This document shows positions 4,307 to 55,018 of a stretch of 64,000 bases of DNA, one piece after another. Origin of the DNA: Candolleomyces eurysporus (lineage: Eukaryota > Basidiomycota > Agaricomycetes > Agaricales > Psathyrellaceae); NCBI GenBank assembly GCA_027579435.1, contig JANBPK010000703.1:1-64000 (forward strand). The letters run 5' to 3'. Numbering within the stretch: the stretch's first letter is position 1; each line of letters begins with the position of its first letter. The notes below the pieces were generated by a model. The model was not told the DNA's origin and made no database searches. It saw only the letters and a list, made by a program, of their open reading frames with translations. Made by a program: the position numbers and the translations under genes.

Positions 4307-5037
4307 ATGTGGCCTGCATGCGGAATTTGCTTCGAAGCGCTTCATCCGGTGCACAAACCTGCCTGTACACTTCCTTGTGGTCCGTCGTGCGCGAATCTTG
4401 GAAATTTTCCGCCTGATTCCCAACCTATCTTTCGCAGGTCATGTCCTCTGCGAGCCTTGCTGCCTGGCGCTGACAGAGAACAGCTCCTCCTGCCCTCTCA
4501 AGTGCCGCAATCCTCTACCCCTCCGACAGAGAGACGTGAGGCCTCTCTCCATCTCCCTTTTTCCGCTCGACCAATCCGAGGACTCTGCGTCCCTTCTCCA
4601 GTAAGCAAACTGCCCGTTTTTTGTCTTCGCTTCATCTCGGTGCTTACCTCCCTCCCTTTCAATATAGGTCCATTGACTCCTCTGACATAGTGCAGAAGTG
4701 TTATCAGTTTAATTGTGGTCGGCTCTCAGAAAGCATCGGTGATCTGCTTTGGAAGCTCCGACGAGACGCGGACAACAACGCGACTTACTGTGAAATTTTG
4801 TCTCAAGCCGTTCAACGGTATCGCGATGCTGTTGCGTCGGTCCAATCTTCCTACGGCGGCCTTCAAGCAGCGCTTGAGGACGGTGATAGATATGCCGAGA
4901 AAATCCTGGCTCTGAGGCGACGTGTGCGTTAATTTTTTTATGATCTCGTCTCGCACGCACTTACATGCACCGAACAGCTGCGAACCTTGCAAATGCTCAA
5001 GGACCAGGCTCACTCTCACCACGAATTCCGACAGTAA
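4307..5037 (+). CDS. RING-like/coiled-coil protein, subtype R1, intact
   Basis: Reconstruction: join(4307..4379,4438..4600,4668..4923,4978..5037), 183 aa, all phases consistent. Residues 1-40 form a RING-like finger: CGICFEALH, then CTLPCGHVLCEPCC and CPLKC, so C-x2-C, C-x3-C-G-H-x2-C-x2-C and a final C-x3-C. The 256-nt third exon encodes an amphipathic helix rich in Q, R, E and L (about residues 80-165), a likely coiled coil. RING fingers commonly bind E2 enzymes in ubiquitin ligases; activity of this variant is inferred, not shown. A TATA box (ATATAAATA) lies near 4241, 65 bp before the start. The gene is absent from the second copy of this segment at 57 kb, where a deletion removes it. The introns split the finger in phase 1 and precede the coiled coil in phase 2, as in its relatives. 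Confidence 0.8.
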
Positions 5038-5179
5038 TAAAGCTTAGATGTCCGAGTCGTTACCACCGGCTCTCGTCCTTGTCACTCGAGCCTTGAATCT
5101 GAAGATGACTTCTAATAGAGATGATCAAGTACTTCTCTCATTTCTAAGAATTATTAAGGATCGTATACAATGGGTGATC

Positions 5180-6240
5180 TAGGTTTTTGCATACGAGTAA
5201 GTGGACAAATGCAGCTCTAGTAAGTCGCTAACCGATGAGCTGCCGTCGTCGATTTGAAGGACACATCCGGTAATGGCCTCGAAACTTGTCCCTAGACAAC
5301 TTCTGCAACAGAAAATGATGCACAGAGGATATAAATTGAGTGCTATAATTCTCCATGTCGCTCCAGATGATTCGCGCAATCTGGGGATCAGTGCAATCCC
5401 AACAGACGCTATAGACGAAATCCACTCTGCCCTCGACGCCAGGCGGATTGAATACGTTAAGTGGGTACAAGGAACTACGGACGAAAGGGTTTAGAGACGA
5501 CTCACCGTGGTCAAGCAGGTCGGAGGCAAGCCGCTTGGTGCATACGATGTGCCGATGGAAATTGATGAGAGGCCGGCAAATTTAAAGATGCGAGGGAGAA
5601 GGTAGAATGGAGACTCACGACACCGTTGACATCCTTGAGAGCGTCTGCGGGCTGACGCTCAGAGCGTCGTTCGGACTGTAACGAGAGCTTGAGAGTACAG
5701 ATGACGTCGCGCATGTCGGCTTTATCTCTTGATAGGGCCATGTTCCTCACATCCAGGTCGTTCGCGATGCAGGACAAGTGGTTGTTGATGGTCTGCGCAA
5801 TTTTGATGGACCGAAGAAGGGAGTCGCATTGGGCCTCGAGGAGCTCGTGTCGGGTCGCACTGGCGGCGACGGCCCTGAATACCATCACGAGAGGGGTTAG
5901 GAAGAGTCAACAAGGGCGAAGATGGGAAGGAGGAAGTACTCATTGGAGACTCGCTGCGATATCACCTGAAGAGGCCGAGGCACCGGTAGAAAGCTCGAGA
6001 GAGCACACGTCTCTTGAGCGTATGAAGTCGAGACGACCGCACTTGAAGGGACAACGCGCACGACCAACTAAGGCACGGCAGCAGCCTGTGCAGAAAACAT
6101 GACCTGAGAAGGGGGACACACAGTGAGAGACTGGCCAGCTGAACCAGATAGTGATCATGAGCAACGCACCACAGGTTAGATAGCTTGCAGGACACTGCGT
6201 CGGATCAAAGAGACTGTAACATACCACAAGAGGCCAGCAT
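5180..6240 (-). pseudogene. Decayed R1 RING-like/coiled-coil copy
   Basis: Reading the minus strand from 6240, this copy aligns with the R1 genes. The finger parts CPASYLTC and GHVFCTGCC and the coiled-coil part RHELLEAQCDSLL can be read, but in shifted frames. Compared with the copy at 58.6 kb, two bases are missing after the first cysteines, which breaks the finger frame. The splice acceptor before the fourth exon reads AC in place of AG (near 5546). The 3' exon region (5240-5340) is shared with the copies at 43.4 and 57.7 kb. It forms part of a larger direct duplication with 57.6-59.6 kb. I consider it inactive. Confidence 0.7.
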
Positions 6241-6289
6241 GGGTGAGAAAGTCGAAGCAGGGGCAACGCTGAGACGTACATCGGCGGAG

Positions 6290-7030
6290 GGGAGGAACCT
6301 GAGATTATTTAGGGTGCCGTTGGCTAGATGTGCTTTGACACTGAGCGTTGATGCCATTGTTGCATACAAACTGACATTGTGGCCACTGGTATGGGTACGT
6401 TGATCGTCGACTGCGGATGTTGTCCGCCGGATCCAGATTGTATACGATGATATAAACGTCACAGATCGTCGCTGTGGACTATTGTTTGTCTTCCACGCCC
6501 ATTACACACACACACATCCACACAACCTGCACCAAAGACAGGCGATAGGCCATCGTATCTCCACCTTGACCACCATCTCGAATCCAATGCGCTCCATGAA
6601 TTCATTCCAGACAGCGTCGGTAGGTTTAACTCAGTGCTTACAGCCCGCGAACTCCTGGTCTGCTCAAAACTTCTGCACACATCTCGCTCCTAGACAATTG
6701 CACTCATCGCATATTTATAATGGGCCTCTAGCCCCCAGGAATATACACCTGGTCGTACTTTAATCCCTTGCCATCTTTTTTCATGGCCTCAGGCAGACAT
6801 TGTGAGTTTGGGTGTCTTACTTCTGTCTTGATGGACTCTTACGATGAATCCGGGTGTCCTTATGCCTGGCTCTCACTTGTCATGCTTCGTTACCCGGCTC
6901 GTTCACCACGAGATCAGTCCCATTTCAAACCTAGTCGCTATTATCGCTGTCCGCACAAACGCCTTGAGATTTGTGTCCCAACTGCCCATGCATCCCAATC
7001 ATTGTGACCTTGTTCAAATGCTTTTCTCAC
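6290..7030 (-). repeat. 5' module of the R1 repeat with CA microsatellite
   Basis: Upstream of the decayed copy (minus strand sense) lies the module shared with 11.7-12.1, 22.1-22.5, 27.6-28.1, 42.1-42.5 and 58.7-59.1 kb: a TATA-like box, the stretch TTGACACTGAGCGTTGATGCC (split here by small changes), a CA microsatellite around 6503-6520 and the block with CCATGAATTCATTCCA. Beyond it, to about 7027, the sequence continues to match 59.1-59.6 kb. No separate gene is supported in it. Confidence 0.6.
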
Positions 7031-7117: not shown

Positions 7118-7869
7118 CTAATGTTCCCCACTCGTATTCATGCCTTCCATGGTCAGAACCTGAGTGACCCAATCAGTCTCGACAATCTACCAACTGCAGA
7201 TCCGTACGCTTACCTTCCGGTACAATTGCTCCACCCCTTCCTCGAGTCTCCTATTCGAGTCTCTTAAGTTTGTCGTTTTCGCTTCCAGACTATCTTTCAG
7301 GTGTTGGTATTGTTTGACCATGTCTGACAGATTCTTCAAGTGGGATATCTGTTGAAAAGCCGTTTCATCGTTTAGTCGGTGCTGTTCCTGAAGACTTGAC
7401 AACTGCGAAGTCTGTGTCTGCAGCATTTCTCCAAGGACGTCCAGCTCCGCGCGACAACACTGCGAGTTGCGATCGCTGATCGATTGTTCATATGTATGAA
7501 TACTCAGCGATGGCTAGGATTGACTCACCTTTCGAAGGATTCCCTTCTTTCTCTGTCGCGCTCCGATGACAGTGCATTCATGAACATTGGCTGAGTTGAA
7601 TCGGCCGTCCAGCTAAGAACTGTCGGACATGCAGGGCACTTCTTCACGACCCTGCCATTGGGAACAAGCGGGAGAACCGTTGCTGCACAAGCACGGCAGA
7701 TGGCAGTATCTGCGACTGATTGAGAAGGCATACCGCGAATCCATATAAGCTTCTACTTACTGCAGCAGGGGGTCTTCCTCAGACCATCATCCTGAAATAA
7801 ATGGCGCTCACAGCCTGCACAAGTGACGGTGAGCTCCCATGAGCTGGGATCCGGGGTCGGTGCTTGCAT
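7118..7869 (-). CDS. RING-like/coiled-coil protein, subtype R2, intact
   Basis: Reconstruction: complement(join(7118..7159,7214..7475,7529..7709,7761..7869)), 197 aa, all junctions in phase. The finger starts CAGCERHLF and continues TPCC, ICRACAAT and CPACPTVLSW: C-x2-C, Cys-Cys, C-x2-C and C-x2-C. No histidine stands where R1 proteins have C-G-H, so this looks like an all-cysteine RING variant; metal binding is inferred. The 262-nt third exon gives a long Q/E/L/R-rich coiled coil (about residues 95-183, with YQHLKDSLEAK). The C-terminus is a short 13-residue exon. A TATTTAAA box lies near 7930. The gene is the closest relative in layout of the gene at 51969. Confidence is high for the model and moderate for the ubiquitin-ligase type role. 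Confidence 0.78.
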
Positions 7870-9826: not shown

Positions 9827-11720
9827 TTAAAGATCTCTGAGGGGCTGGGCGTGTCGAGCAGGGTCTTCCGCTTGCAAGTCGGCGATTGCAGCTCTGATAG
9901 AATCTAGCCATGTGACGAGGCGGTCAATGACCCATGGGAGACTAGTTCTCACATGGCGACGAAGCCACCCAGATATTAATTCCGTGAGGGGAACAGCGAT
10001 ATCCTGGACTCATGAGTTATTAGCAAATCGGCAATGACTTTCATCAGCCCTATTGACCATCAGATATTTGAGTTTACCTTCATGATACAAAATATCACCG
10101 CCCCAGCAATTACGGTGAATATGAACTTGGGAAGGTCGTTGGCCATGCGTATGCGCATGGTAGACACGCTAGTCGCTGATTGGGCGCCTCCCTGCTTGAA
10201 ATCCGCATGCGATTCGGAGAGGCGGACGTGACCCGATGCGCTTGAACTTGGGTCATGATCGTACTTCATCGTTGGGAGACGTGCACGTGAGACGTTTGTC
10301 AATGCTGCTGCTTGATTCTCGAGAACTGTCATGATAATAGGAATTAATGCGAATCGTCCCGGTGCAGTGGGAGAAGTACAGACCAAGAGCTTTCCCACTG
10401 GCTCTGCGCCAAAGAGTTATAGACGCCGATTTACCACGACTGGAGGTCCCAGTCGCTACCATCGTGTTTGCATCATCGCCAAAACTCTCCCAATAGCTCT
10501 AGAAAAGCATTCTCAGCTAATTTAGCTGAGTAGCACGTCCAGATAACGTACCACTGTTTGAACTATTTCTGTTCCTATGGGTTGGATTGTTAGTCAGAAG
10601 TGATGCACGTCGCGGGCATTGAGAGCTCACCATGAGAAAGTACTTCGAAGTTGCTGTCTCTATCAAGGGACACGATTCGGACGGCCCCCCCNAGAGGCAC
10701 CAAGAAGGATTGCCTGGCCTCGATGGACGAAGCAGGAGCCAAGGGAGACATTCGCCCGAATTTGCCCAATACATATAGTACGTATGAATTCCCGCCCGAC
10801 AAGGTCGTAGAGATCAAAGCCATTATACAGGTTCGAGCACAACATCAATGATTTGGATGAGTTGACCACCGAAGTGCCTCTACAAATCACCAAAGAATGA
10901 ATGCATGTTGGCTGTAATTTGAGCAATCACTTACATGCGATACGAATTAGATCGAATGGACCAGTCCTCCGCTTTGGTACGGAGGTTCCAGCAGCGTATT
11001 CCATGATGTAAATAGGTGACCAAAAGGAATAGGTCACCTAGATAGTGGGCTGCACGAGCTTCGAGCTTCAGGGGTGAGGGGCTTCCTGGTGTAGTTGCTC
11101 CATTACCCGCCTCGTTGATTAAGGTGAGGTTAAGCACTTCTTGATAAGTCCCTACAACAGATTTGTTGAGCAAGCCTTGGTATCGGCACCGAGTGGTGGT
11201 CGCGCACCTTTTCTGACCTCCTTCAAAGACACACACACGACATCGCTCCCGAAGGTGATCGCAAGCATATTTCCAGAATCGTCGAGTTGAAGAGAAAGTA
11301 TTTCCTCAGCAAAGTTGTGAATGGGGGTAGCCTTGCCCTTTTGCTGAGGGGGATGGAGAGTCGCCTCATTATCCTGACCCCAGGCAACTTGCGAACCCTA
11401 CCGGCCGGACAATTCAGTCATTGCGCGTTTCGCATAACAAACAAAACAAAACTTGCCGCGGCCACTGGGATAGCATATAGCTCCCCGTTGGAAAGTCCGG
11501 CGACTAGAACGTTGGAATCGTACGACCATGCCAGAGCTGTCACAGCTGCAGACAGCGCAAAGTGATCGCCCAAGGCCAAGGTCTCACAATTAAATATTTT
11601 AATCGTAGCATCGTCGCTGCCTGATGCAAGAAAAAGTCCGTTCGGAGAGAAAGCAACGCAATTTACGGCGTCTGTGTGCTCATTGGAGAAGGTGTGAGCA
11701 CAATAGTAGCCAGCTGCCAT
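9827..11720 (-). CDS. WD40-repeat protein with C-terminal membrane segment
   Basis: Reconstruction: complement(join(9827..10003,10078..10325,10399..10498,10552..10574,10631..10879,10935..11151,11208..11343,11457..11720)), about 470 aa. WD-type blades are readable: VNCVAFSPNGLFLASGSDD followed by IKIF at the N-terminus, then LYNGFDLYDL and SASITLW. Near the C-terminus a hydrophobic run (FIFTVIAGAVIFCIM) predicts one membrane helix, followed by a 58-residue tail. The intron after the first exon uses a GC-AG pair (GCAAGT donor). One undetermined base at 10692 sits after a run of seven cytosines; removing it restores the frame exactly. WD40 propellers act as protein-binding scaffolds; the partner here is unknown. 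The upstream sequence is the same module that precedes the R1 RING genes. Confidence 0.75.
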
Positions 11721-12100
11721 ACCAGGATGAAGGGAAAGAGTGGGAGCGAGTGAGCAAATTGGACAGATTGGAACGCAATGCGAGATGGATCAAGAGTGCA
11801 CAAACAGTGATCAACAGCGACAATTGTGGCGTCGACCGGTGCATGCGCTCTACCGATGCTAGTAGACTCTACCTCCTCCGACATGCGTGAGTGAATCATC
11901 ACAGCTGCTTCCTGACCAAGCCCTGTTGACTTTGAGTTCTCCGCTGCATGGCCCTGACAGCTGGAGTGACATCCAGTGGGTGTTCAATGGCACCAACGCT
12001 CGGTGTCAAAGCACATCTAGCTATCAGCACCCTATATAATCCTAGGTTCCTCCGCTGCGGCCGATGTACGTCTCGACTTTGCCTCTTGCTTCGACTTTCT
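11721..12100. promoter_or_regulatory. Shared 5' module between WD40 gene and R1 copy
   Basis: Between the two divergent genes lies a variant of the R1 5' module. 11800-11890 matches 42.11-42.24 kb (shared blocks AACAGTGA.CAACAGCGA, GGATGCTCTCTACC-like and TACCTCCT.CGACATG). 11990-12045 contains the promoter-proximal part (GGCACCAACGCTC, GTGTCAAAGCACATCTAGC, ACCCTATATAAT). The TATA box points to the plus-strand R1 copy. The same DNA is the only upstream sequence available to the WD40 gene. Confidence 0.55.
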
Positions 12101-12105
12101 CACTA

Positions 12106-12535
12106 ATGCTCCTCTTGTGGTATATGTTGCAGTCTCTTGCACCCGACACTGCGTCCTGTGAGCTATCTAACCTGTTGTGCATCGCTCATGCACGAGCTCC
12201 TCGAGGCCCAATGCAACTCCCTTCTTCGGTCGATCAAAATTGCGCAGAATGTCACCAGCCATTTTTCCTACATCGCGAATGGCCGGGATTGAAGAGTGAC
12301 GCTTTGAGCGGATGTCAATGGTATTGTGAGCTCCTGATTCTGCCTCTTCCCTCGCATCTCCGCAAACCTCTCATTCTTTCCCATCGGCAGATCGTTTGCA
12401 CCAAGCGGCTTGCTTCCAACTTGACCACGCTGAGTGTAGAGCACTTGATGAATGCCTCCGGGAATACGGCACAGCGATCGAGCCCATCGTGTTCAGAGAA
12501 AACTGTAATACAGTGTATTCAACAGGAATTATGAC
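12106..12535 (+). pseudogene. R1 copy lacking the second half of the finger
   Basis: The start and first finger half correspond to the 58.6-kb copy, but two bases are lost near the start codon. Sequence then jumps at about 12190 from the end of exon 1 into the coiled-coil exon (ACGAGCTCCTCGAGGCCCAATGC), so the C-G-H-C-C part is missing. The coiled-coil exon is itself shortened before the 3' exon (ATCGTTTGCACCAAGCGGC). It cannot encode the family protein. Confidence 0.65.
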
Positions 12536-12560: not shown

Positions 12561-13465
12561 TTAACGTATTTGCTTCCCCTTGAGAATAATGACGAGGTGT
12601 CCTTCTTTCGGTGCTGTCGAACAATCTATCACCCGAACGCTGTCCAAGGGTGTGCCGCCGTTGTACAGACCTCGAAATCCAAGGTCCACACAAAGCGACT
12701 CTCTAGATCTCCCTCTCCTTCCCTTTGTTGCTACGTTTGCTTCGAGNCTTTTTTGAACGAATTGCATTGATTTAGTCCAACTGGAAGAATGATGCACGGA
12801 GAAACATACCAGCATCACTGATGTGCTGCAGAGTGCGAATGCGGCGCTGGGCAAGCACTGTTTTCTCCTCCAGAGCATCCCTGTCACTCCACGCACTCTC
12901 GACGTGCAGCCGCAATGATTCCAAGTCTCCAATCAGGTCACGATGTGTGACGGCGATCTGAGCAATAAGCTGACTGTTGTTCATCACCTCATTGGCTTGC
13001 ACTCCCAGAACTCCTGCAGCCTCATTGATCTGTTGACAGAGCGCCCCGATACTGGCCTCATGGAACCTATGAACGCGGTCTAATGACTGAATTTCTCTAG
13101 CAGGGGCAGCGCTGCATAATGAGGTTATGCATGATCTGCTAAATAAAGCACTCACTGAAGGACAGCAGTCACGTCTTCTTCAATACGGTCATAGCGAATG
13201 ACCAGGTGAACCAATTCCTCGTATATTAGACTCGCGCCATCGCGGCACTTGAGCGGACAGGGTAAGGAACCACGAAGAAGTTCCATGCAGCATCCTTCGC
13301 AGAGGATGTGTCCTAGAGTAAACAGTGGGAGTAAGCCGAAAATTTGTGGATCGTCAGTAAATCTCAGCCACCCGCACCGCAAGGTAGATGAATGGGTCTC
13401 TTCCCAGTAGCAGTCGTAGCATGATCATGAAAGGCGTCGAAGCAAATGCCACAAGCTGGCAACAT
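12561..13465 (-). CDS. RING-like/coiled-coil protein, subtype R1, intact
   Basis: Reconstruction: complement(join(12561..12739,12810..13111,13156..13312,13378..13465)), 241 aa in phase throughout. The finger reads CGICFDAFH, then HLPCGHILCEGCC and CPLKC; a short insertion (about five residues) lengthens the first loop compared with the gene at 4307. The third exon, 302 nt and longer than in relatives, encodes a heptad-like helix (about residues 85-180, with NSQLIAQIAVTH and QRRIRTLQHI). A basic 58-residue C-terminal exon (TKGRRGRSRES) ends with KGKQIR. The acceptor of the last intron is the weak point: it lies beside an undetermined base at 12747. A TATAAAT box stands about 35 bp upstream near 13500. 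The neighbouring gene on the same strand, at 13669-14596, is a relative. Confidence 0.72.
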
Positions 13466-13668: not shown

Positions 13669-14596
13669 TTAGCCCATCGTCAGGATTCGTGCGCGGGTCC
13701 TACGCCCTTGGTCAGCCTCCGAGTCCCGTTCAACTGTCGAAGATCTAGAATGGGAACGCTTGACCCCAGCGGCGACGGCGTCTGAATCTCCTAAGGCTGA
13801 AGGCTGTTAGCGTCATAGGACATGTTTTGAGAAGGTATTGCTCACCTGGAAACGTGCGGAGAGCGGACCTCGTTTCTTTGAATTGCTCCAGGCTGCGAAG
13901 CTAGGGACTATGATCACAATCTCAGCCGGCCAAATAGAAACAGTCGACGTACACGAGCAAGCAGAGCTATTCGCCGTTGGTGCAGAAGGGTCTCCTTGTC
14001 CACTTGAGCGCGATAAGCAGTTTGAACAACGTGGAGAGCTGAAGCGACCCTCCCCTCAGATACGCAAGCCACGGCAATCTGCTCCGACATATTGACCAAA
14101 AACACCTGTTGCTCTTCCACCTGCTTGAGGAGGTTGCCTATCTCCCTACGCGTCAGAAGTAAGCTCGCCTTTTGAATCTCTTGTTCCATGTCGACGGCAT
14201 AGCGTGCTCTAGACATATTAATGATTCGGAATCAGTCATGCTGGCTCTTAGGGGAGCGGAATGTGGGTTAAATGAGAATATGAACGTGCCCACTTACTGC
14301 TGCACTGCCGTCAAGTCATCTTTCTGGGAGGAATAATCCCAAGAGAAACATAGAGATGTTATTTCTGAACCAACGATGATAGTATTTTGACGACATTGGT
14401 ACGGGCAAGGCTTTTGGTTAACCAGGGCCTCGACGCAATTCGAGCACAATACATGGCCTATGAAACATCAATAATTAGAAATGTCTTCACGGGGCGAGAA
14501 TCATGAGCACCGTGAACCGAGCTCACCGCAAGGAAAATGGCATGCATGTCGGCCTTGACCGAGGGTCTCAAAACATACCAAGCACTGAGGAATCAT
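13669..14596 (-). CDS. RING-like/coiled-coil protein, subtype R1, intact
   Basis: Reconstruction: complement(join(13669..13790,13846..13892,13942..14208,14298..14457,14527..14596)), 221 aa. The finger is CLVCFETLG, then CHFPCGHVLCSNC and CPYQC. The coiled-coil exon (about residues 78-165) contains REIGNLLKQVEEQQVFL and QRRIALLARVRRL. The last two exons give FKETRSALRTFPG and a serine/arginine-rich end (VKRSHSRSS) that could be a nuclear localisation signal. The first two introns are canonical. The donor at 13941 (GTTTCT) is not, and two alternative readings of the last two exons are open, so the C-terminal 55 residues are tentative. It lies head-to-tail behind the gene at 12561-13465, about 200 bp apart. 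Confidence 0.65.
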
Positions 14597-15440: not shown

Positions 15441-16619
15441 ATGTCGGTATCTCCCATGCACCCTCCCGCCTCGAATCCTTCTCTCAGTAGTCCAGGCGAT
15501 GCCTCTGAGGTGCAGCTTACCATCGGATGTGACGTCTGCAAATGTCCTGCCTTTGACCCTTGCGACCAGTTTGGTACCCTAAGATGCTGTGGTGAGCTCT
15601 ATTCCCCCCNGTAGTCTATATTTATATCCTTACTCCACACTCAGGAAGGCTTCTTTGCAAGACATGCCTTGCTCTTGCAGAGGTCCAGGCATCTGCTGGT
15701 GAAGAAAGCAAGGAGTGTCCATACTGCCGGCTGTCATTCACTTCCGAAGATATACAGGCCGTCTTCTTCACTCACTACGTCGAAGATTCAAGCACAGAGA
15801 TTTTTGATGCTCGTAGACGACAACACGCAGCAAAGTCAGCTTTCGACTCATTGTCGTGCTATGGGAGAGGTCACTGACTGTTCCAAAAGTGATCCAGATC
15901 ATCAAGCTCGTTTGCGCAATATCGCGGTACTTGAGACCGGGAGGAACGAATTATCAGACCAACGTAGCTCTATACAACGTGAAAGATGGGAAGTCGAGAG
16001 GCAGATTCTGACGGGCTCCCGCTCCCAAATAGCTCTGGATGCAAGTTTGGGAGCTGTCGGAATTTCGAAATCTTACCTGGAGAAATCCATCGAAGAACAG
16101 AGGCAGAAAAACGATTCGCGGAGGGAATTGATTCGACAGGCCAGACAAGAGGTCAGTTGCACCTTCCGATTCCTCTCACTTATTCTTCTATGTTTATCTT
16201 TATAATCCTAGCTCGAGGCTGCACAACTCCAAACCAAAGCGATTTATTCCTTGGCGTCGTACGTCGATGGGCTAACTCTGGACCATAGGTCTTATTCCCC
16301 CGAGGCCACTTCTGCCTCAATTCAAGGCGAAGATAGAGACTCCCAGCTATCTGATTCTTCCTCAGGCAGTACGTTAAGCCTTCCTTCGGATGCCTTCAGC
16401 ATCTGGGAGCACGAGCTAGTAGCCAGAGAATCTCACCCTGGAATCGAGATGGATGGAGAACCTGATGATATAGGTCGCCGCGGGGAGAGTGACATGGGCA
16501 GGCAATCAGAGTATCAATCTGAATTCTCCGACGAAAATACGGGGGCTAGCGACGACGCATGGACAGATACGAGCTCAAACTACGTGGACGCTAATGAAGA
16601 CAGCTCACACGTTAATTAG
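15441..16619 (+). CDS. RING-like/coiled-coil protein, subtype R2, with acidic tail
   Basis: Exons that I can place: 15441..15591, 15645.. to about 15820, a coiled-coil exon ending 16151, and 16212..16619. The finger reads CDVCKCPAF, LRCC, LLCKTCLA and CPYCRLSF, the all-cysteine R2 type. FFTHYVEDS matches FFTRYDDDG of the gene at 23073. The helix (QRERWEVERQI and EKSIEEQRQKND) is a clear coiled coil. The last exon is acidic and serine-rich (SQLSDSSSGSTLS, GASDDAWTDTS), which is unusual for the family. The second intron is not resolved: the coiled-coil frame is one base off the finger frame, and candidate introns of 37 or 85 bp restore it. An undetermined base at 15610 is inside the first intron. 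Confidence 0.65.
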
Positions 16620-17015: not shown

Positions 17016-19295
17016 TCAGCTTTCCTGCATTTCAGCAACTTGAGCAAGCGAGGAAGGACCAGCGGCTCCAAATGAGAGGTCTGCCATGAGATAGTCGTTT
17101 TCCGCGTCAGTCGCAGCTTCTAGCGCTTCTGCTGTCATCCTGCAGTCGACGTCAAAGTCCCAAAGATCCTGAAGCAATGGATACGGCGTCGGTCAGACGC
17201 TCGTCGCAGTTATTGTTGTACTGACCGGGAGGAAACCCAAAGTGCTAAGGCTTGTGGGTACGAGAGTACTTGAAAATAGCTGGAATAGATCGGGAGGCTT
17301 CAAACGGTACACCTGCAGGTCAGCAAAAAAGTTAAAGGAGCCGCAAGCAGAGTGGCACCAACCGGAGGGGTAGCATTGAACTCCAAATTCGGACTGGGTA
17401 CGGCCGGTGGGGACTCAGATTCTGGCGGTGTCGGGCTTACAGACTAGGATACAAACGCAGCAGACAGTCAGGCCTGGCGCACTGGTAGCATGACTGTGGT
17501 ACGAACTGGGAAGGTGACGGATCCGTGACTGTGCAAGGAAGCTGGGGCCAGAAGTCCGGGCTGTATGGTGGTCAGCAATTCCTGCCGTTCCGGCCCTTGC
17601 GACTATTCGGACGTCATCCTTATGAGTGTCGATACGGAACAGTTAAACAGTGGTACGAACTGGAGAAAGAGTGAAGGACCCTGAAGTACGAGGAGTCGAG
17701 AACAGCGACAGAGAGGGGCCTGCCGGACGTGGAGTATCCAGCTGTGTCTACAGTTTGATGAGAATGAACCAAAACTCATCACAAGCAGCGATATACCCAC
17801 CAGAGAGGTNAAAAAAAGAATTCGTGCCACACAAAGTCGCTTCCTGTAATGAAGGAGAGCCTACAGACGTCAAGGCCTCTACGGTTGGCGGCTACAAGCA
17901 GGTGAGATGATGACGACGAGAAAGCTTGACGTTGAAAGTGGACAAACCTGAGGTGTTTGCAACGAAGGATAATCTGAAACCTCCCGCAGGTTCTGTGGAG
18001 TCACATTTTGGGATTATCAGTTAAAAATCGGGATCGTCACCCTGACTAATGCCACTTACTCGACGGATGAAGAAAGTAGGAGAAGGAGGACCTGATACAG
18101 TTGGGTCGGAAGGTCCGGGAGCGCCTGGAGATTGCGGTGGCGTGATGTCTTGCGACTACAAGCACCGATGCAGATGGTCAGACTGAGAACGAGTTGTGAA
18201 GTGGTCTCACTGACAGGAGCACCGATAATCGCAGTTGAAGCGTCTGCATGGCATAAAGTTGGAACGCTCAGTGATCGTGACTGTATCAGAACTTGTGACT
18301 ATGATATTAAGTCAGAGGTAGGGCACGTTGGAAACATGAATGGCCACCAACCTCATGAGGGTGGTTATGAGTCCAAAACCCTCCAGTTCCTAGAATCGGC
18401 GATGATGCCCAGTTTGCAGGCATCGATGCATTCGACCATGTATTCCCAGCAGAAGAAACCTACGGAATACATTAAGGAGGTTGCCGCGAGAACTTTAATT
18501 GGGACGTACCTGAAAGGCATTTTGCGTGGCGTAGGGAGCGGCCAACAACGCTTGCGGATTCATGAAGAGCTCTTCCTCCGATCCTCTTTTCAGCTTCAAA
18601 GGACCATTTCAGCGAATTTCAGGAGCTCGGAAAAACGAGATTGTAAACCCACCTGAGATATACAGGAGATCTGCTGATAATGTAACAGAATCATTTGCTT
18701 ATGCTCCTGGCGGAAGGTTATCTGCAAGGCTTGCAAAGCTGGGAGAATTTCTGCAATTTTATTGGTAGCAGAAGATACGTGTCGAACAAGGCGTGTCAAG
18801 TGTGCGCTCTGAAGGTCTATAGATATTCGGAGATCTTCGCTCTGTCGGCGAAGAGTGTTGATGCTATCGAGAAGAAATCGTCGCTCTCTACTAATAGCAG
18901 CCAAGGCACTGGGGAGAGAAAGTAATAAATGGGATAATCAGACGGTGCTCAGGCTCTATCGTTCACCGGTGAATAAACGGCGTACCTTTCAACAACTTCC
19001 TCATCTTCTTGCTGACTCGTTTGCTTGAAGAGGAGAGGGGCTCGTTGGATTTGGTTGGAGGAGACAACGGGTAAGCGATCATCATTGTTTGATTTCTTAC
19101 GATGTTCCAGTCCAGGGCAGCTAGGTCTGCTCAGAGCAGACAGATTCGCACAGGAGAAGCAAAAGAGTACTACAGAATATGTGACGATTTGCGGTTTGAT
19201 GGTAAAGTGGACCACTCACAGCAACAGAAATATTTCGCGGCGTTTTCCTGGGTGGGGTTAATTAGCGCATCGCAATTCATGCAGACTGGTCTCAT
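17016..19295 (-). CDS. RING-like/coiled-coil protein with long Pro/Ser-rich tail
   Basis: A gene of at least 13 exons. Secure part: complement(18060..18155, 18215..18298, 18352..18459, 18510..18593, 18653..18908, 18986..19169, 19220..19295), plus 17948..17992, 17801..17891, 17649..17747 and three final exons ending at 17016. The finger reads CMNCDALIN, FCC, FCFSCANLS and SCPGLEH, an R2-like variant whose last ligand may be histidine. The 256-nt exon 18653-18908 is the family coiled coil (RREL-type helix with LDSINTLRRQSEDLR). Downstream the protein becomes proline/serine-rich (TPPQSPGAPGPSDP, SLSLFSTPRTSG) and ends acidic (DLWDFDVDC, AATDAENDYLM). This looks like a regulator-type tail spliced to a RING/coiled-coil head. 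Exons between 17480 and 17660 have two possible arrangements. An extra N at 17810 must be dropped to keep frame. Confidence 0.6.
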
Positions 19296-42059: not shown

Positions 42060-42480
42060 TATCGCCTTCTTTGATCCAGTTGTGTATGTGTGTGTGTGTG
42101 TGATGGGCGTAGAAAACAAACAGTGACCAACAGCGATGATCTGTGAGGTCGTTGCGCATGCGCAGGCAGTGGATGCTCTCTACCTCTACCGACGAATACG
42201 AGTAGACTTTACCTCCTTCGACATGAGCTAGTGAATACGGTGGGCTATTTCTGTTACCCCCTCGAATTCGACCACCAGCTGACCATATCATGACCGCGTA
42301 CAGTCTGGATCCGGATCCAGAGGACAACGTCCACAGTCGTGGCCTAGCCACGACGATCAAAGCACTCATACCGGTTTGGCCTGGCCACAATGCCAGATTG
42401 TGTGCAAAAATGGCACACTAACGCTCAGTGTCAAAGCACAACCAGCTACCGGCACCCTATATAACTTCAGGTTCCTCCGC
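42060..42480 (+). promoter_or_regulatory. 5' module of R1 gene with TG microsatellite and TATA box
   Basis: Best preserved copy of the module in front of a usable gene: TG repeat at about 42084-42101, GTGACCAACAGCGATGATC, GAGTAGACTTTACCTCCTTCG, GGACAACGTCCACAGTCGTGG (inverted half sites GGACAACGTCC), CAATGCCAGATTGTGTGC, ACGCTCAGTGTCAAAGCAC and CACCCTATATAAC about 85 bp before the ATG. The same order holds in five other places in the window. Confidence 0.6.
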
Positions 42481-42541
42481 TGCCGCCGACGTACGTCTCA
42501 GCCTTGTCCCCCTTCGCCCCCCTGCTTCGACTTTCTCACCC

Positions 42542-43501
42542 ATGCTGGCCTCTTGTGGTATGTTGCTCATGATCATGATCACTATCTGGTTCAGCTGGCC
42601 AGTCTCTCACTGTGTGTCCCCCTTCTCAGGTCATGTTTTCTGCACAAGCTGCTGCCGTGCCTTGGTCGGCCGTGCGCGTTGTCCCTTCAAGTGCGGTCGT
42701 CTCGACTTCATACGCTCAAGAGACGTGTGCTCCCTCGAGCTTTCTACCGGTGCCTCGGCCTCTTCAGGTGGTATCGCAGCGAGTCTCCAGTGAGTACTTC
42801 CTCCTTCCCATCTTGGCCCTTGTTGACTCTTCCTAATCCCTCTCGTGATGGTACTCAGGGCCGTCGCCGCCAGTGCGACCCGACACGAGCTTCTCGAGGC
42901 CCAATGCGACTCCCTTCTTCGGTCCATCAAAATTGCGCAAACCGTCAGCAACCATATGTCCTCCATCGCGAACGACCTGGATGTGAGGAACATGGCCCTA
43001 TCCAGGGAGAAAGCCGACATGCGCGACGCCATCTGTACTCTCAAGCTCTCGTTACAGTCCGAACGACGCTCTGAGCGTCAGCTCGCAGACGCTCTCGAGG
43101 ATGTCAATGGTGTCGTGAGTTTCTATCCTACCTTCTCCCTCGCATCTTTGCCGGCCTCTCATCGATTTTCATCGGCAGATCGTATGCACCAAGCGGCTTG
43201 CCTCCGACCTGCTTGACCACGGTGAGTCGTCTCTAAACCCTTTCGCTTTCTCGCTCTTCTCATCGAATGGTTTAGCCTCCAACTTCTTTTCTCCGTAGTT
43301 CTTTGTACCCGCTTAACATATTCAATCCACCTTGCGTTGAGGACGGGGCGGATTTCGTCGATAGCGTCTGTTCGACGACCTGACATGAAGAATCATAACA
43401 CTTATTTTACATCGTCCGTGCATCACTTTCCTGTTGCAGAAATTGTCTCGGGAGATTCGTCCTTCAAATCGACGACGGCAGCTCCGATAAGACGTCGGTG
43501 A
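42542..43501 (+). CDS. R1 protein with finger half replaced by hydrophobic segment
   Basis: Reconstruction: join(42542..42789,42859..43114,43179..43221,43440..43501), 202 aa in phase. The second finger half is present (GHVFCTSCC, CPFKCGRLDF) and the coiled-coil exon has the family length of 256 nt (TRHELLEAQCDSLLRSIK, SERRSERQLADAL). The third family cysteine pair and first loop are deleted. Because of this deletion the former first intron is now read in frame, giving LLMIMITIWFSW, a hydrophobic stretch at residues about 8-20 that resembles a signal anchor. The C-terminal exons read IVCTKRLASDLLDH and IVSGDSSFKSTTA. It is the only repeat-borne R1 copy with a continuous frame. Whether it makes a folded finger is doubtful. 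Confidence 0.55.
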
Positions 43502-48084: not shown

Positions 48085-48680
48085 TTCATGTGCCTCCCAG
48101 CTTCCACCGTACGTTCAAGGAGACGTGTGCTCTCTCGAGCTTTCTACCGGTGCCTCGACCTCTTCAGGTGGTACCGCGGTGAGCTTCCAGTGAGTACTTC
48201 CTCCTCCGATCCTCGCCTTGTTGACTCCTCCCAACCCCTCTCCAGGGCCGTCGCTGCCAGTGCGACCCGACACGAGCTCCTCGAGGTCCAATGTGACTCC
48301 CTTCTTCGGTCCATCAAAATTGCATAGAACATCAGCAACCATTTGTCCTGCATCGCGAACGACCTGGATGTGAGGAACACTCTCAATCTCGTTACACTCC
48401 GAACGACGCTCTGGGCGTCAGCTCGCAGACGCTCTCGTGGATGTCAATGGTATCGCGAATTTCCATTCTACCTTCTCCCTCGCATCTTTGCCGGCCTCTC
48501 ATCGATTTCCATCGGCAGATCGTCTGCACCAAGCGGCTTGCCTCCGACCTGCTTGACCACGGTGAGTCGTCGCTAAACTCTTTCGCTTTCTCGCTTTTCT
48601 CATCGAATGATTTAGCCTCCATATCCTTTTCTCATGAACCGGTCCCGTAGCTTTCTCGTACCCACCTAGCGTACTTGCAA
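48085..48680 (+). pseudogene. Truncated R1 copy with internal stop
   Basis: It begins in exon 2 after the finger, keeps the acceptor and the coiled-coil exon start, then shows a TAG where relatives read CAG (AAAATTGCATAGAACATC near 48320) and a deletion of the central coiled-coil part after GATGTGAGGAACAC. The 3' exon text follows. It cannot encode the family protein. Confidence 0.65.
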
Positions 48681-49089: not shown

Positions 49090-50021
49090 CTACCCTTGAC
49101 ACCCTTTGCCGCCGATGAGGTCTTTCAATGGTATCGACCTGATCCTCTTCGAAAGCGTCCGACCGGGGTCGTTTCTGTCCAGATCCTTCTGAAACCCTTC
49201 TTGATCAGCGATCGTGACCAATGATAATCTAGTAGGGAGGAGTCGCACCTGATACTGTAGCTCCAGGTCTGGGGCGACGGGCAAGTTGATGGCTCCGAGC
49301 CTGAAGTGTTTCCATGGTTCGTATCTGAATAACGGATGCCTTGGTCAGCAATATATCGGAGTATTGAAAGAAAGTGCTTTTGACTCACACAACGTCGCAT
49401 AAACATGATATGTTCCGCGGTACGGTCGCCCTCTGCGAGCGCTTTTTGTAGCTCGTCGTGAGCGGATTCAACAGAAAGAATAACCTCTTTTTGTGTTTGA
49501 ATAGCCTGCGACATATCTTCAGCGAACGCTGCCACTGCGGATTCCCTCCCAAGCAAGTCGAGGAGCATATCGTCGATACGTTGACAAAGCTCTTTGCAGT
49601 TGGTGTCGTAGAACTTGTGCGCTGTGTCCAGGGATTGCATGGCCCTAGAGAGTGCCCAAGGGTAACAGGTCAGAGGACCAAATGCATCGAGGTCGAACGG
49701 CCGCATTTGTGTCAACTTACTGAGCAATGGATCCGGATTCAGCATCCTCAGATTGTCGGATAGGGACAAGAGAGATTGCGAGAGGTCTGATGTGCCTGTG
49801 GCGGAGAGGAGCACCTTCCCTGCATTTAAGTGGGCAGGAGGAGCCGCTCTCGATCAGCGTCAGGCAGCAAGGCTCGCAGAGGACGTGACCTGCGGAGTGT
49901 TATGGCCTATNTTAGAAACCACGNAGCTGAAAGCAACGANACACGNACCACAAGAAAGTCGATGAGGAGGTGTGNGCACAGGATGAAGTGCGTCGAAGCA
50001 AACTCCACAAGCAGGCCACAT
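49090..50021 (-). CDS. RING-like/coiled-coil protein, subtype R1, intact
   Basis: Reconstruction: complement(join(49090..49199,49249..49324,49389..49644,49721..49889,49949..50021)), 227 aa, all in phase. First exon (73 nt) and coiled-coil exon (256 nt) have exactly the sizes of the gene at 4307. The finger reads CGVCFDALHP, LSCGHVLCEPCC and CPLKC, and the following linker (ISLVPIRQSED) also matches 4307 (ISLFPLDQSED). The coiled coil contains KELCQRIDDMLLDLLG and SAHDELQKALAEGD. A basic C-terminal pair of exons (ARSHQLARRPR, LSKRIRSIPLK) is added. Five undetermined bases fall at 49911-49975, one of them in the first finger loop. A TATAAAT box is near 50103. This is the closest relative of the gene at 4307, 45 kb away. 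Confidence 0.77.
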
Positions 50022-50535
50022 GATGCGACTGGGACTAGTCTTGGAACTGGTCGATAGGAAGGGTGCGAAGAGGGTGTGGATTCTGAGGAACTAAAAAGCT
50101 GCATTTATATCTTCCACACACAGAGGGCGCCATGCTAATGAAGTCGCAAAGAGATCTAAAGGGACAAAGAGTAGCAACTTGACATGATCACCAGCACTTC
50201 GACATGATCACATCTCAAGGCCATCACATCCAAATATGGTGCATCTACTTTTGGCAGTTTTGCACCCCTCTGGATCGATCACTCGACTACCTCTCGCCAT
50301 CACCTCAAAGACCTTTCGAATTCCCCGCTCGGGCTGACTGTGACAGACGCAAGCACCCGTTGTAACACATACAGGCCTCGAAACCTGTACAGCGTCGTTC
50401 CAAGTTCTTCCTATTCTCGAGTTGTCGATCCCCGAGATTTCTGGAGTTTCAAACGTAAACCTCATTCAGCCGACCGAAATATTTATTCAGGTGCCTATTA
50501 ACACATGTACAATAAGATACGTCTTGATTATCACC
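50022..50535. other. Intergenic with short interspersed block
   Basis: No gene is supported. 50200-50300 carries GGCCATCACATCCAAATATGG followed by TGCATCTACTTTTGGCAGTTTTGCACCCC and TCACTCGACTACC, the block seen also near 4090, 25360, 35520, 41755 and 53870. Confidence 0.45.
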
Positions 50536-51352
50536 TCAAGCCAAATCACTCTCAGTAACGCTTGAGCTGCTCCTTGACCCAGGAGCAAATATTTCGCTGT
50601 CCAATTGGACTATCTATAATCGTTATGAGTAAAAGAAAGCTTATTGAGTTGGTCATCACCCACTCTGTCGTAAAGAGCTTCCAACGCTTCTTTCCTCTTC
50701 TCGTTGCTCTCCAGAGCCGTCCTAAGCTTCGAATCCAGATCTTCTTTCATCCCCTCATATTTACCAGTCAACTCCTTCAACTCATCCAAACGAACCGCGT
50801 TTTCCCGAGTGATTTCCTCGTTAAGCTTGAATCTTTCCTTCATTTCTTCGAGTCTTCGACCCCTGGACTCGTGCAATGAGCGAAGGAACGCCACCTCGTC
50901 TGCACAGGCTTGATAAACGGGGTTTCTATAAAGCATCGATCGGTCAGTTAGCGTAATCTTGTCAAGTCGACATGGATAACCGTACCTGGAAGACATGTCC
51001 TTTCTTTTCTGATCACATCTCACAATTTCGGGCTCAGTGACAAACCGTGTGAAGTACACGGGCTGCAAAGATGTACCTGTCCAGGTCCTCGAGAGAGTGC
51101 AGATGGGGCATGATTTGGTGACAGATCCCTTCGGAGTCAAGGGCAGCAGGAGAGCGCAACACCCTTCACATAGCAAGCCATCTGGATGCACAGAATGAGA
51201 TATCATTTGCTAGAATTGCAAGGCCATTATTACGCACCGCAGCAAGGGGTCTTCTTGATGGGTTGCTCCTCATCGAACAGCTGTCTTTCGCAGCCTGAGC
51301 AAGCTAAAGTCAATGGGGGCTCTCTGTCCTCTAGCGAGTCTGGGGTATTCAT
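50536..51352 (-). CDS. RING-like/coiled-coil protein, subtype R2, intact
   Basis: Reconstruction: complement(join(50536..50613,50664..50925,50986..51181,51238..51352)), 216 aa in phase. The finger reads CSGCERQLF, TPCC, LLCEGCCALL and CPICTLSRTW: all-cysteine R2 type with D/G where the histidine of classical RINGs would be. The 262-nt exon forms a strong coiled coil (MKERFKLNEEITREN, DLDSKLRTALESNEKRKEAL). The last exon is serine-rich and acidic (RSSSSVTESDL). It is divergent from its relative at 51969, with about 615 bp between the starts; the two share the finger spacing and the exon plan. A TATAAT-type box lies near 51420. Confidence 0.78.
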
Positions 51353-51968: not shown

Positions 51969-52672
51969 ATGGCAACTTCTAGCGACCATTACGAGCTCAC
52001 TGTAGCTTGTGCAGGGTGCCAGCGTCCTCTGTTCTACGAGAGCGACTCGGATCTGAGGAAGACGCGCTGTTGTGGTGAGTGGGTTCAACAAATCCGAGTC
52101 CCTTTGTTTGACCGTCTTCAAACTTCTCCTTGATCCATCCTTTAATTCAGACGCAATCATATGCAGAGCCTGCGTAGTGACCGTCCTTCCTTTGAGTCCA
52201 GGCAGCTCCAAGATTGAGAAGTGTCCTGTATGCACGACTGTTGGTGCATGGACGGAAGAGACACTACAACTCGTACACATGAAGTTCCAATACTCAGAAC
52301 GTGACCACGTAAAACAGAAAGATCTGGGTGTAGGGTGAGTAACTATATAAGCCGGCGATAGCTACGAGTCAGGTTCAGTACCTAACAGTTGTTCGCATTC
52401 GCAGTGATGCCCCGGCTCCCACCCTCCAGGAACTGGAGATTCTTCGTAAACTTCGGGAAGAACTGGCCTGGGAAGTCGCAAGTCTAAAGGAGCAACAGGA
52501 ACTGAATGAAGAAGCGCTTCAACACTACTGCTCTCGCTACAAAGGTTTGACGGAGACGGCTAAGCGATATCAGGATTTGAAAAGCGACATCGACCATAAG
52601 ATTGGTCTCTTACAAGACATGAATGGAGTCTCGTCCAAGCGGGTGGACAGGTTTTATAAGGAGGCACTATGA
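51969..52672 (+). CDS. RING-like/coiled-coil protein, subtype R2, intact
   Basis: Reconstruction: join(51969..52074,52151..52334,52405..52672), 185 aa in phase. The finger reads CAGCQRPLF, TRCC, IICRACVVTVLPLSPG and CPVCTTVGAW; it matches the gene at 7118 closely (LTV-CAGC, ICRAC, TVLPL). The last exon encodes a coiled coil of about 85 residues (EILRKLREELAWEV, LKEQQELNEEAL, KRYQDLKSDIDHK) and ends the protein, without the extra tail exon of its relatives. Finger intron in phase 1 and coiled-coil intron in phase 2, as in the whole family. It faces away from the gene at 50536. Confidence 0.8.
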
Positions 52673-52817
52673 GATCCAAGGAGCACGTTCTCGTGATCAC
52701 ACAACACAAAGGAGCCAGTTATAAAGAACATGTAGATGTGTATTGGTTTTTATATCTTGATAATATCAAGTTCGAATGATAATTGTGTAGTACCCACGAC
52801 GAGGGAGCAAAGATTGC

Positions 52818-53684
52818 TCAAACTGAGCAGCGAAGATCGTAGCGGCCAAAGGCGTTGTTAACGGCCTCATTGAGGGCGTGAATAGCTTGCACGACTTCTT
52901 GAAGGAGGACCAAATGCTGATATAGAGACTGTCAGCTTGACCACAAGAACTGACTGTAAAGGATGAATCTTACATCGCAAGGCGGAGGCGGAGGGAGGTC
53001 ACGGCGTTCGATATCCACGTCCGCCTGGAGTTCCTCGCTGTCGGGATCATGCATGGGATAGTCCTCGTCATTACTGGCAAACAGGTTGGTAGAGGTGGTA
53101 TAATTGGTAGTGGGGAGATGGTGACCGCGAGTATCGGGATGCATGAGGACGAAGGTCGGTTGACTACGGTCTTGGTCGTCCTGGTTGCGAGGAGGCTGAA
53201 CGTCTTGAGTGTCACTGAACGACTCGTCGGCGTCCTGATCGTACTGAGAGCGACTGAACGATTCGTATGGGTACCGAATGTCCTGGCCGAGAGAGAATTG
53301 GACCTCCTGGGAGTCCTCGCTTTGAGATCCGTGCTCCCTCTCGTCCTTGTCTTGCTGTTCGTCCCAGATCGGGGAATGGCAGAGCCGAGGTGTGCTCCCT
53401 CCCAGAACGCCACGCACCAATGCCGACGCCGAAGGAGAGACGGCCTACGTCCACAATGTCAGTACTAAGATTGAATAATGAGAGGGAGAACAGACCCTCG
53501 GCGTCGAAGGCGGACTCATGGTGGACGCTCGCGAACTGGAGGCAGCCCGTGCCTTTGGAGACCGGATGGGAGCGTGTTTCACACCCTTCAGACTTGATTT
53601 TGACCTCTTACGTCGACGAATGAGCCAGAGGATAGCCCTCGAAAGAGATGGAGGAAGGTGAATGTCGGACTTTATGGTCAACAT
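52818..53684 (-). CDS. Acidic Asp/Gln/Ser-rich protein, four exons
   Basis: Reconstruction: complement(join(52818..52916,52974..53354,53418..53444,53496..53684)), 231 aa, all phases consistent. The N-terminus is basic (LIRRRKRSKSSLKG), which could be a nuclear localisation signal. The centre is acidic and repetitive (SFSRSQYDQDADESFSD, DNDEDYPMHDPDSEE-like), with a proline run (LPPPPPC). The last exon forms a short helix (LVLLQEVVQAIHALNEAV). No known domain is recognised. Broken relatives lie at 35.6-36.65, 41.64-42.0 and 48.76-49.0 kb, mostly beside R1 copies, so gene and R1 module seem to have spread together. An undetermined base at 53779 is upstream of the start. Confidence 0.6.
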
Positions 53685-54139
53685 CCTGGGCCCTGCCGTG
53701 TGGAGTTTAGGATCAAGACTAGTCCTGGAGAGAAGTCGGGGGAATGGGAGATTGACTTCACCCCTTTTAAATCCCCCCNTTTTATCTTGTTGAGGACCTC
53801 TGTCGATAGCTGTCATACTCAAGCCTGGCGAAGGACATGTCTTCGGAGGTGTGATCGACGAAAGGTAGTCGAGTGATGGTCAGGAGGGTAAGACTACCAA
53901 AAGCGGGTTGCACCATATTTGGATGTGATCGAGGGCGATCAGGTGTGATGGTGTCGAGGTGCTCTCCCCTATGCTCTCGCTTTCATTGCAGGACCTTTCC
54001 TCAATCAACATGGCGCTCTCTGTCTCATATGGGAGGGAGGAAGACCGCCCCTCAAGTTCAGCTCTATAAACACAGCTCCTTTACCTCCTCAGAATCCCCA
54101 CGTCCCGGACCCCGTCGCCTGGCACCCGTCCTGCGCATT
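53685..54139. other. Intergenic with interspersed block and TATA box
   Basis: 53860-53960 carries the reversed form of the short block (ACTACCAAAAGCGGGTTGCACC, ATATTTGGATGTGATCGAGG). A TATAAAC box near 54064 precedes the plus-strand gene. The same combination (block, then box, then R1 gene) occurs at 4060-4307. Confidence 0.5.
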
Positions 54140-55018
54140 ATGCTGGTTGCCTGTGGAATTTGTTTCGATGCACTCCACCATGCTCATAGACCTGCCTGTC
54201 GTTTGGTCTGCGGTATGTATACATTCTGTCTCTATTCTGTCAATCACTCCCTCACTTTTGACCGAGAGCAGGGCACGTTTTCTGTGCGTCATGTTGCGAC
54301 CGCCTCATCGTCGCTGGACACTCTTGCGCCTTCAAATGCTCAGGCAACTTCCCCTTGGACTATCGGCATGTCAAGTCCCTGCATCTATCCGTGTTTCCCA
54401 TCAAAGTAAAGGATAGACGTCGTGCCGAGCTCTATTACACCTTCCTGAAGGACGCGGTCGGGACGTGTAATTTCTTTTCCGGCCCTATACCAGACGACGA
54501 TGCATCAGCGGCCTTACAGTGAGCCTTCGTATCCTTGAAACTTTTCCTTCCGCTTACGGCTTTCACTTTTAGATCCATCGCGTCCAACAAAGTTCGAGAA
54601 GGCCTTCTCCAGGAACAGTGTGCTTCCCTCGTGCATGCTCTGAAGCTCGAGAGAATGGTTACAGAACGTCTCTCTCAAGTTCTGAAGCGGAACGAAGCTC
54701 AGTTGCTTATTCTTGCCAGAGAAGAAGCCGATTTGCGTGTCACCATCATGAACCACCGCCAAACATTACTTGCGGAAGAGGTGATTGGTCAAGATCTCAA
54801 AATCGAGCTAGGCCGTCTCCGGGGAAAGGTTCGTATCTTATAATTAACGCTTGAAAGTCGTCGATCCTGATTTTTTGGGGCTTCGCATCATCGAAGATTG
54901 ACCGCGAGCGGAAACTGGTCTCTCATCTCCTCCAACAAGGTATGGCTCACCTCCATGATCAATGGCAGTCGTGTATGCTTACCACCTCTCGACAGCCGGC
55001 GCCCATTTCCATAACTGA
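54140..55018 (+). CDS. RING-like/coiled-coil protein, subtype R1, intact
   Basis: Reconstruction: join(54140..54212,54272..54518,54573..54828,54897..54939,54996..55018), 213 aa in phase. Exon 1 (73 nt), coiled-coil exon (256 nt) and fourth exon (43 nt) have the same sizes as in other R1 genes. The finger reads CGICFDALHH, CRLVCGHVFCASCC and CAFKC. Exon 2 is longer than in relatives and adds a segment with LHLSVFPIKVKDRR and FFSGPIPDDD. The coiled coil contains QEQCASLVHALKLERM and REEADLRVTIMNHRQ. Its upstream region matches that of the gene at 4307. A RING-type ligase or adaptor role is inferred only. Confidence 0.77.

Follow-up and report, generated by a model that had tools for sequence, protein, structure and literature searches.

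A clustered family of RING-like finger and coiled-coil genes in Candolleomyces eurysporus, with a diverged second cluster

INTRODUCTION

Can a crowd of small finger genes and finger-gene relics at one locus of a mushroom be a working protein family, and if so, of what kind? The question is raised by a stretch of DNA from Candolleomyces eurysporus (Psathyrellaceae, Agaricales), namely bases 1-64000 of contig C980 (78,579 bases; hereafter the window) in an assembly of 65.85 Mb and 1296 contigs, where genes encoding a cysteine-rich finger followed by a coiled coil lie close together. Mushroom-forming fungi have RING, F-box and BTB protein sets that are tied to complex development, with few assigned functions. 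We find that the genes testable by comparison with a second, diverged cluster are under purifying selection. The explanation that we favor, by a modest degree of confidence, is a lineage-restricted Candolleomyces family in which proteins with RING-like fingers (types A and intact B) would act as coil-dimerised E3 ubiquitin ligases and paralogues without the ligand histidine (type C) as their non-catalytic partners. The locus brings together, in one compact and so far genus-restricted group, versions of one finger that look active (A, B) or are likely inactive (C), with a promoter block shared by a subset of the genes, which makes the function of the family testable; a RING variant with C-x3-C spacing is documented as well, as is a RING-derived finger that lost the ligand histidine in a gene still under selection.

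RESULTS AND DISCUSSION

Gene models and architecture

Within positions 4307-55018 we modelled 12 usable finger genes, all with GT-AG introns (Table 1): five of type A (A1-A5), five of type C (C1-C5), the intermediate C6 and the finger-only E1, so that finger and coil are both present in 11 of the 12. Eight relics of type B accompany them, in line with a preliminary description of this DNA that had counted about twelve usable genes and at least eight relics, except that B8 lies outside the 4307-55018 span which that description covered. Models were spliced manually and, for the ten A and C genes, verified with a spliced aligner. A spliced scan of the whole window gave 1749 alignments; the third of these that fell on the reversed window served as the null and scored at most 73. 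The ten template genes scored 937-1353 against their own templates (a trivial self-match), and across templates a score of 424 was reached by the A4 template on the A1 region. C6 and E1, which were located by reading the low-scoring 18.6-20 kb stretch, scored 94 and 72, the latter not above the null; they were accepted because both have counterparts on contig C1272, that of C6 being a deposited protein (P0007), and because E1 has a near-threshold RING match in Pfam (zf-C3HC4_3, E 8e-6, 26.0 bits against a cut-off of 27).

All 12 models have a phase-1 first intron directly after the third ligand; exon 1 encodes the first finger cysteines, exon 2 the remaining finger and the linker, and exon 3 the coil. 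The coil exon measures 256 nt in A1, A3, A4, A5, C6 and their counterparts on contig C1272, and 262 nt in C1-C4 and the counterparts there of C2 and C4. The C4 model, for which one last exon was chosen over an alternative, matches the C. aberdarensis protein EST38_g13489 end to end (216 aa, 94% identical). Heptad periodicity, judged against 400 shuffles, was significant (p<0.05) in 6 of the 11 coil exons, supporting a coiled coil for the family, not for each member. The A and C profiles align across finger and coil (hhalign 95.6%, E 1.1e-8), and by this comparison A and C genes are homologous, with a common ancestor.

A second cluster and purifying selection

For 11 of the 12 window genes a diverged counterpart lies on contig C1272; for C3 none was found on the parts of that contig that were read. 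The order C1, WD40, B, A2, A3, C2, C6, E1 is kept there but inverted, C4 and C5 are head to head there too, and A1, A4 and A5 are rearranged. Synteny is marked by a non-family region inside the cluster, encoding a WD40-repeat protein and 76% identical between the two contigs; the other non-family stretches compared are 68-78% identical.

We estimated dN/dS for ten pairs of genes from the two contigs (C3, which has no partner, and E1 were outside the set). For C5 the value covers exons 1-2 only (95 codons), a full-length estimate of 0.30 having been discarded because the frame of exon 3 in its counterpart is in doubt at an ambiguous base. At dS of 0.61-1.05 and protein identities of 65-81%, dN/dS was 0.14-0.26 in all ten pairs, with bootstrap upper bounds below 0.4; by part it was 0.17 for the finger, 0.24 for the linker, 0.18 for the coil and 0.28 for the tail. 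The ten A and C genes tested are thus constrained, under purifying selection, and pseudogene status is rejected for them. The preliminary description had called the family fast-evolving, which these values contradict, and had held dN/dS near 1 to be incompatible with its interpretation; such values are excluded for the ten genes tested. Near-identical copies (six comparisons) show 29 synonymous and 29 non-synonymous differences, pooled 0.30, from which selection is not readable; three of these comparisons taken singly reach 0.58-0.63 on only 3, 3 and 12 differences.

In a tree of 24 proteins, the nine copies included from contig C1272 join their window counterparts, the C2 pairing being weakly supported (83/53). 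C4 pairs first with the C. aberdarensis protein, and the C1272 copy, 76% identical to C4, joins after (97/91); the split between the clusters is therefore older than the split between the species.

Versions of A1, C4, C5 and A5 on contigs C39, C184 and C189 show about 2-3% mismatches (92-97% identity with gaps); haplotig-like pairs elsewhere in the assembly differ by 1.2, 1.5 and 2.7% and by 1.3, 1.5, 2.0 and 5.5%. Contigs C602 and C16 differ from each other by about 10% and may be paralogues. Taking C39, C184 and C189 as the second haplotype, we read contig C1272 as probably a paralogous cluster rather than an old haplotype. That balancing selection has instead kept one locus in two very old haplotypes, C980 and C1272, is the lesser but still considerable possibility: A5 has close versions in three places, A2, A3, A4, C1, C2 and the WD40 region showed no close partner, the only two places in the assembly with the WD40 region are on C980 and C1272, and the compared non-family stretches are as diverged as the family genes. 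It would, however, require three versions of A1, C4, C5 and A5 in two nuclei, the second versions lying in the haplotig range, and the right flank of the cluster has a 94% whole-length partner on contig C69, an 87% partial one on C652, and elsewhere partial matches of 66-72%.

A-type fingers resemble RINGs

The A-type alignment comprises 13 proteins (A4 was excluded for an N in its finger, and its C1272 counterpart included). Nothing in it is invariant except the eight C3HC4 ligands and a single Gly; A4 itself carries all eight ligands. Searched against the PDB, the A profile matched 69 distinct sequences at E up to 0.01, and the 60 shown are all RING proteins by name, mostly E3 ligases. Best among them is RNF4 (6.6e-11, with two RINGs in one chain); RCHY1 (4.5e-7, where single-RING matches start) and AMFR (5.1e-7) are further examples. 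The RING domains of these three have in common with the A fingers the C3HC4 order and a C-x2-C ... CGH-x2-C-x2-C ... CP core; they differ in that the A fingers have an extra residue between the last two ligands, and other parts of the proteins do not match. Pfam RING models match A1, A2, A3 and A5 (best E 9.3e-6 to 5.9e-4), with A2 clearing a cut-off (zf-RING_UBOX, 26.0 versus 25.2 bits), as do the relatives P0001 and P0002, for one RING model each. I or V precedes the second ligand Cys in all 13 rows, and Arg directly follows the eighth ligand in 9 of the 13; we take the former to be the E2-contact position and the latter the linchpin. The profile and Pfam matches support a RING-like character for the A-type fingers.

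C-type fingers lack the ligand histidine

The preliminary description had assigned a Cys/His, RING-like finger to the whole family. A Cys/His finger is indeed found in A1-A5 and E1, but 6 of the 12 window fingers (C1-C6) lack the ligand His, and a RING likeness is supported for the A type but not demonstrable for the C type. Seven cysteines are invariant in the C-type alignment (11 rows) and an eighth is present in all rows except C6 and its counterpart, such that the C6 finger has neither ligand His nor eighth Cys. With the phase-1 intron as anchor, the A-type ligand His aligns with a variable residue in the C type, and an extra Cys stands just before the third ligand; this extra Cys may replace the missing His. 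An I or V in front of the second Cys is seen in only 2 of the 11 C rows. The best PDB matches of the C profile are coiled-coil proteins (E 0.004-0.02). Judged by such searches C-type fingers are not demonstrably RINGs, and their link to the RING fold is indirect, since it runs through the homology of the C profile to the A profile. C6 falls among A-type proteins in the tree, with a long-branch warning; if this placement is right, the ligand His was lost more than once.

CNOT4-type C4C4 RINGs resemble the C-type fingers in their all-Cys set with C-x4-C-x2-C in the middle; in the C type the third and fourth Cys are adjacent, a difference from the CNOT4 type. The CNOT4-type Pfam model zf-RING_4 gave no match in C1, C3, C4 or C5, and matched A3 only, at E 8.4.

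Proposed function and its main rival

If the A-type fingers are what their ligands suggest, each would hold two zinc ions and recruit an E2 enzyme, as would the finger of an intact B protein; the coil of about 85 residues would dimerise the protein, and linker and tail would supply specificity for a target or a location. The C members, descended from the same ancestor without the ligand His and most of them also without the hydrophobic E2-contact residue, would be non-catalytic partners within the same coiled-coil assemblies as A. Zinc binding, E2 recruitment, dimerisation, A-C pairing and the existence of substrates are all predictions from the sequences.

Several observations weigh against this explanation. 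All 13 A rows end their ligand set with C-x3-C, one residue over the canonical C-x2-C, and three of the four A proteins submitted to Pfam (A1, A3 and A5; A4 was outside the set) stay under the RING cut-offs. On the C side, C1, C3, C4 and C5 had no significant Pfam RING match (best E 0.067; C2 was outside the submitted set), C6, P0005, P0006 and P0007 had none at E up to 0.1, and the C profile had no significant RING match in the PDB (best RING E 0.073). The coil exon of A2 (302 nt) and the last exon of C5 (268 nt) depart from the 256/262 nt pattern, and the heptad test was not significant in 5 of the 11 coil exons (A2, A3, A5, C3 and C4), so that the coil of about 85 residues proposed for all members in the preliminary description is upheld in the other six exons, and is absent from E1.

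The unusual last pair, the His-less half of the fingers and the sub-threshold scores could also be expected if the fingers were protein- or nucleic-acid-binding zinc modules of coiled-coil adaptors or nuclear regulators, RING-like in fold only; basic tails in A3, P0001 and P0002 also fit. We think this rather doubtful, given that all 60 PDB matches shown for the A profile are RING proteins, mostly ligases, and that I or V occupies the E2-side position in every A row.

B copies and the question of a recognition array

The window holds eight B copies, in both orientations, none with all eight ligands in an intact frame; the other seven match B6 piecewise at 78-90% identity. By contrast the B copy of the likely allelic contig C189, only 85-87% identical to window copies, retains the full set of eight ligands, and its coil exon is open. 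DNA-level matches to B are limited to contigs C980, C39, C189 and C1272 and one place on C234, and on this distribution B was rejected as a genome-wide transposon; C431, C1014 and other contigs hold weaker relatives at the protein level. B looks like a genuine A-like subfamily decaying in this haplotype. Two of the relics, B3 and B4, lie one in each arm of an inverted duplication (21759-22836 / 27291-28382, 94-99% identical) whose 4.5-kb spacer holds C3.

Such local birth and death of B copies would be expected of an array for self/non-self or anti-element recognition, with a TRIM-like role and varying between the nuclei of the dikaryon, in which gain and loss yields the B relics. It would also fit that gene content varies between contigs that are likely alleles (C184 and C189 both have A5, and C189 a B copy whose finger and coil exons are intact), and that one assembly holds two deeply diverged versions of the cluster. 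Differences in gene content are compatible with self/non-self recognition or genome defence and do not demonstrate it. We regard an array of this kind as unlikely: finger, coil and tail are all under purifying selection with no hypervariable segment, and the members submitted to Pfam show no further recognition domain. A defence role is a possible but unsupported reading. Least probable of all is the extended form, a TRIM-like system independent of that of animals, with active A/B and E2-blind C proteins in obligate mixed assemblies whose mix varies between nuclei by presence or absence of members, serving as an array for recognition or developmental compatibility in two anciently diverged copies.

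Relatives and comparable families

Relatives of the proposed ligases and partners were few. With A1 as a single query, none of 180 candidates reached even E 10. The A profile found 4 proteins with E up to 1 among 6827 candidates, three from C. eurysporus and one unnamed 102-aa fragment, and the C profile 3 among 7610, two from C. eurysporus and one from C. aberdarensis. No named relative outside Candolleomyces appeared in the single-protein and profile searches, which cover deposited gene models sharing five-residue words and may miss relatives elsewhere. At least one deposited model truncates a family gene: H1R20_g1889 (116 aa), the one deposited protein returned from C980, spans A3 minus its finger. 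Elsewhere in the same genome, contigs C557, C602, C16, C230 and C78 hold more distant A-type members whose finger is encoded by a single exon.

The preliminary description took the family to be analogous, not homologous, to animal TRIM proteins, and this holds. TRIM (RBCC) proteins are a family of animals, with subfamily A also in a few fungi (PMC3503706). They share with the window family an N-terminal RING-like finger and a multigene character, and their coiled coil after the finger has a likely parallel in the window family, where heptad periodicity supports it in 6 of 11 coil exons; the window family differs in having no B-box, MATH, SPRY or other C-terminal domain match in Pfam, in a coil that follows the finger after a short linker, and in lacking the ligand His in half of its genes. 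A B-box was matched in none of eight members at E up to 10 and none of seven more proteins at E up to 0.1 (A4, C2 and B were outside the set), and TRIM membership was rejected on this ground.

RING, F-box and BTB proteins are among the gene groups specific to complex multicellular fungi (PMC8893723), and these groups are a natural frame for the window family. Common to both are RING-like proteins, a mushroom-forming fungus and, probably, protein ubiquitination; the window family stands apart in that the protein searches gave it no named relative beyond Candolleomyces, and by its concentration in one cluster plus a diverged second copy, with more distant members on other contigs. The main text of PMC10182949 mentions neither zinc fingers nor F-boxes, and searches of the open-access literature listed no paper on a comparable fungal cluster of RING plus coiled-coil genes.

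Feature positions, upstream block and neighbouring sequences

Table 1. Family genes, relics and associated features of the window (dN/dS is against the counterpart on contig C1272; exons in order of transcription)
Feature	Position	Strand	Exons or state	Protein (aa)	Copies and remarks
A1, RING-like C3HC4 finger + coil	4307-5037	+	4307-4379, 4438-4600, 4668-4923, 4978-5037	183	98.9% identical on contig C39, 79% on C1272; dN/dS 0.19
C1, all-Cys finger + coil	7118-7869	-	7869-7761, 7709-7529, 7475-7214, 7159-7118	197	dN/dS 0.19
A2, RING-like finger + coil	12731-13465	-	13465-13378, 13312-13156, 13111-12810, 12780-12731	198	one residue N in assembly; dN/dS 0.15
A3, RING-like finger + coil + basic tail	13669-14596	-	14596-14527, 14457-14298, 14208-13953, 13900-13846, 13790-13669	220	dN/dS 0.26
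C2, all-Cys finger + coil + acidic Ser-rich tail	15441-16619	+	15441-15591, 15645-15834, 15890-16151, 16212-16619	336	dN/dS 0.24
C6, A-like coil exon (256 nt) + His-less finger	18653-19295	-	19295-19220, 19169-18986, 18908-18653; partial at 3' end		counterpart on C1272 deposited as H1R20_g9517 (P0007)
E1, finger only, no coil	19680-19901	+	19680-19749, 19810-19901	53	counterpart on C1272 terminates at identical residues
C3, all-Cys finger + coil	23073-24071	-	24071-23912, 23846-23654, 23600-23339, 23282-23073	274	
A4, RING-like finger + coil	49229-50021	-	50021-49949, 49889-49721, 49644-49389, 49324-49229	197	one finger residue N in assembly; dN/dS 0.22
C4, all-Cys finger + coil	50536-51352	-	51352-51238, 51181-50986, 50925-50664, 50613-50536	216	dN/dS 0.14
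C5, all-Cys finger + coil	51969-52672	+	51969-52074, 52151-52334, 52405-52672	185	head to head with C4; 97% copy on contig C184; dN/dS 0.19 (exons 1-2 only)
A5, RING-like finger + long linker + coil	54140-55018	+	54140-54212, 54272-54518, 54573-54828, 54897-54939, 54996-55018	213	copies with identical exon lengths on C184, C189 and C1272; dN/dS 0.17
B1 relic	5482-6337	-	exon 1 frame broken, intron 2 donor lost; finger exon 2 and coil exon otherwise readable		
B2 relic	11985-12435	+	pieces resembling exon 1 and the coil; no finger exon 2 found		
B3 relic	22426-22928	+			within one arm of 99% inverted duplication (22271-22836 / 27291-27856)
B4 relic	27182-27701	-			within the other arm of the same duplication
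B5 relic	37025-38136	-			plus finger fragment at 38136-38057
B6 relic	42416-43461	+	finger exon 2 and coil exon open; finger portion of exon 1 lost		
B7 relic	48110-48661	+			
B8 relic	57651-58754	-	exon 1 intact; internal deletion in finger exon 2		
WD40-repeat protein region, non-family	10000-12000	-			inside cluster; Pfam WD40 7.8e-17 for ORF 11418-11789
21-base upstream block	4105-4125	+			before A1; two mismatches
21-base upstream block CACCATATTTGGATGTGATSG, core CCATATTTGG (CArG-like)	50221-50241	-			before A4
21-base upstream block CACCATATTTGGATGTGATSG	53911-53931	+			before A5

A1, A4, A5 and their C1272 counterparts carry the 21-base block 202-256 bases before the start codon, with 0-4 mismatches to the pattern, and its core CCATATTTGG, which we take to be a CArG box, is exact in four of the six. 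A TATA-like box follows at -63 to -104 in this set. The block was in none of 13 other upstream regions examined (best at least 8 mismatches). The whole window has four matches to the pattern, versus 0.00 expected: the three before these genes and one with 3 mismatches at 41748-41768.

The cluster is flanked by a direct repeat (1670-2823 / 56194-57351, about 54.5 kb apart, 94-98% identical) with 68-78% relatives within contig C1272. The non-family region at 60000-62200 matches contig C189 in part, at 94%, and contigs C674 and C1023 at 72-75%; the sequences on C674 and C1023 are 98% identical. Two open frames have transposase similarity, to Transposase_21 (tnp2) at 30196-31896 (6.8e-13) and to a Tc5-type transposase DNA-binding domain at 20529-21326 (6.5e-18); the stretch adjoining the latter, 19678-20775, is 70% conserved on contig C1272. 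Also inside the cluster is an F-box-like gene at 39849-41525 (25.0 bits, cut-off 24.3), whose sole other DNA match in the assembly is a 69% one on contig C1143.

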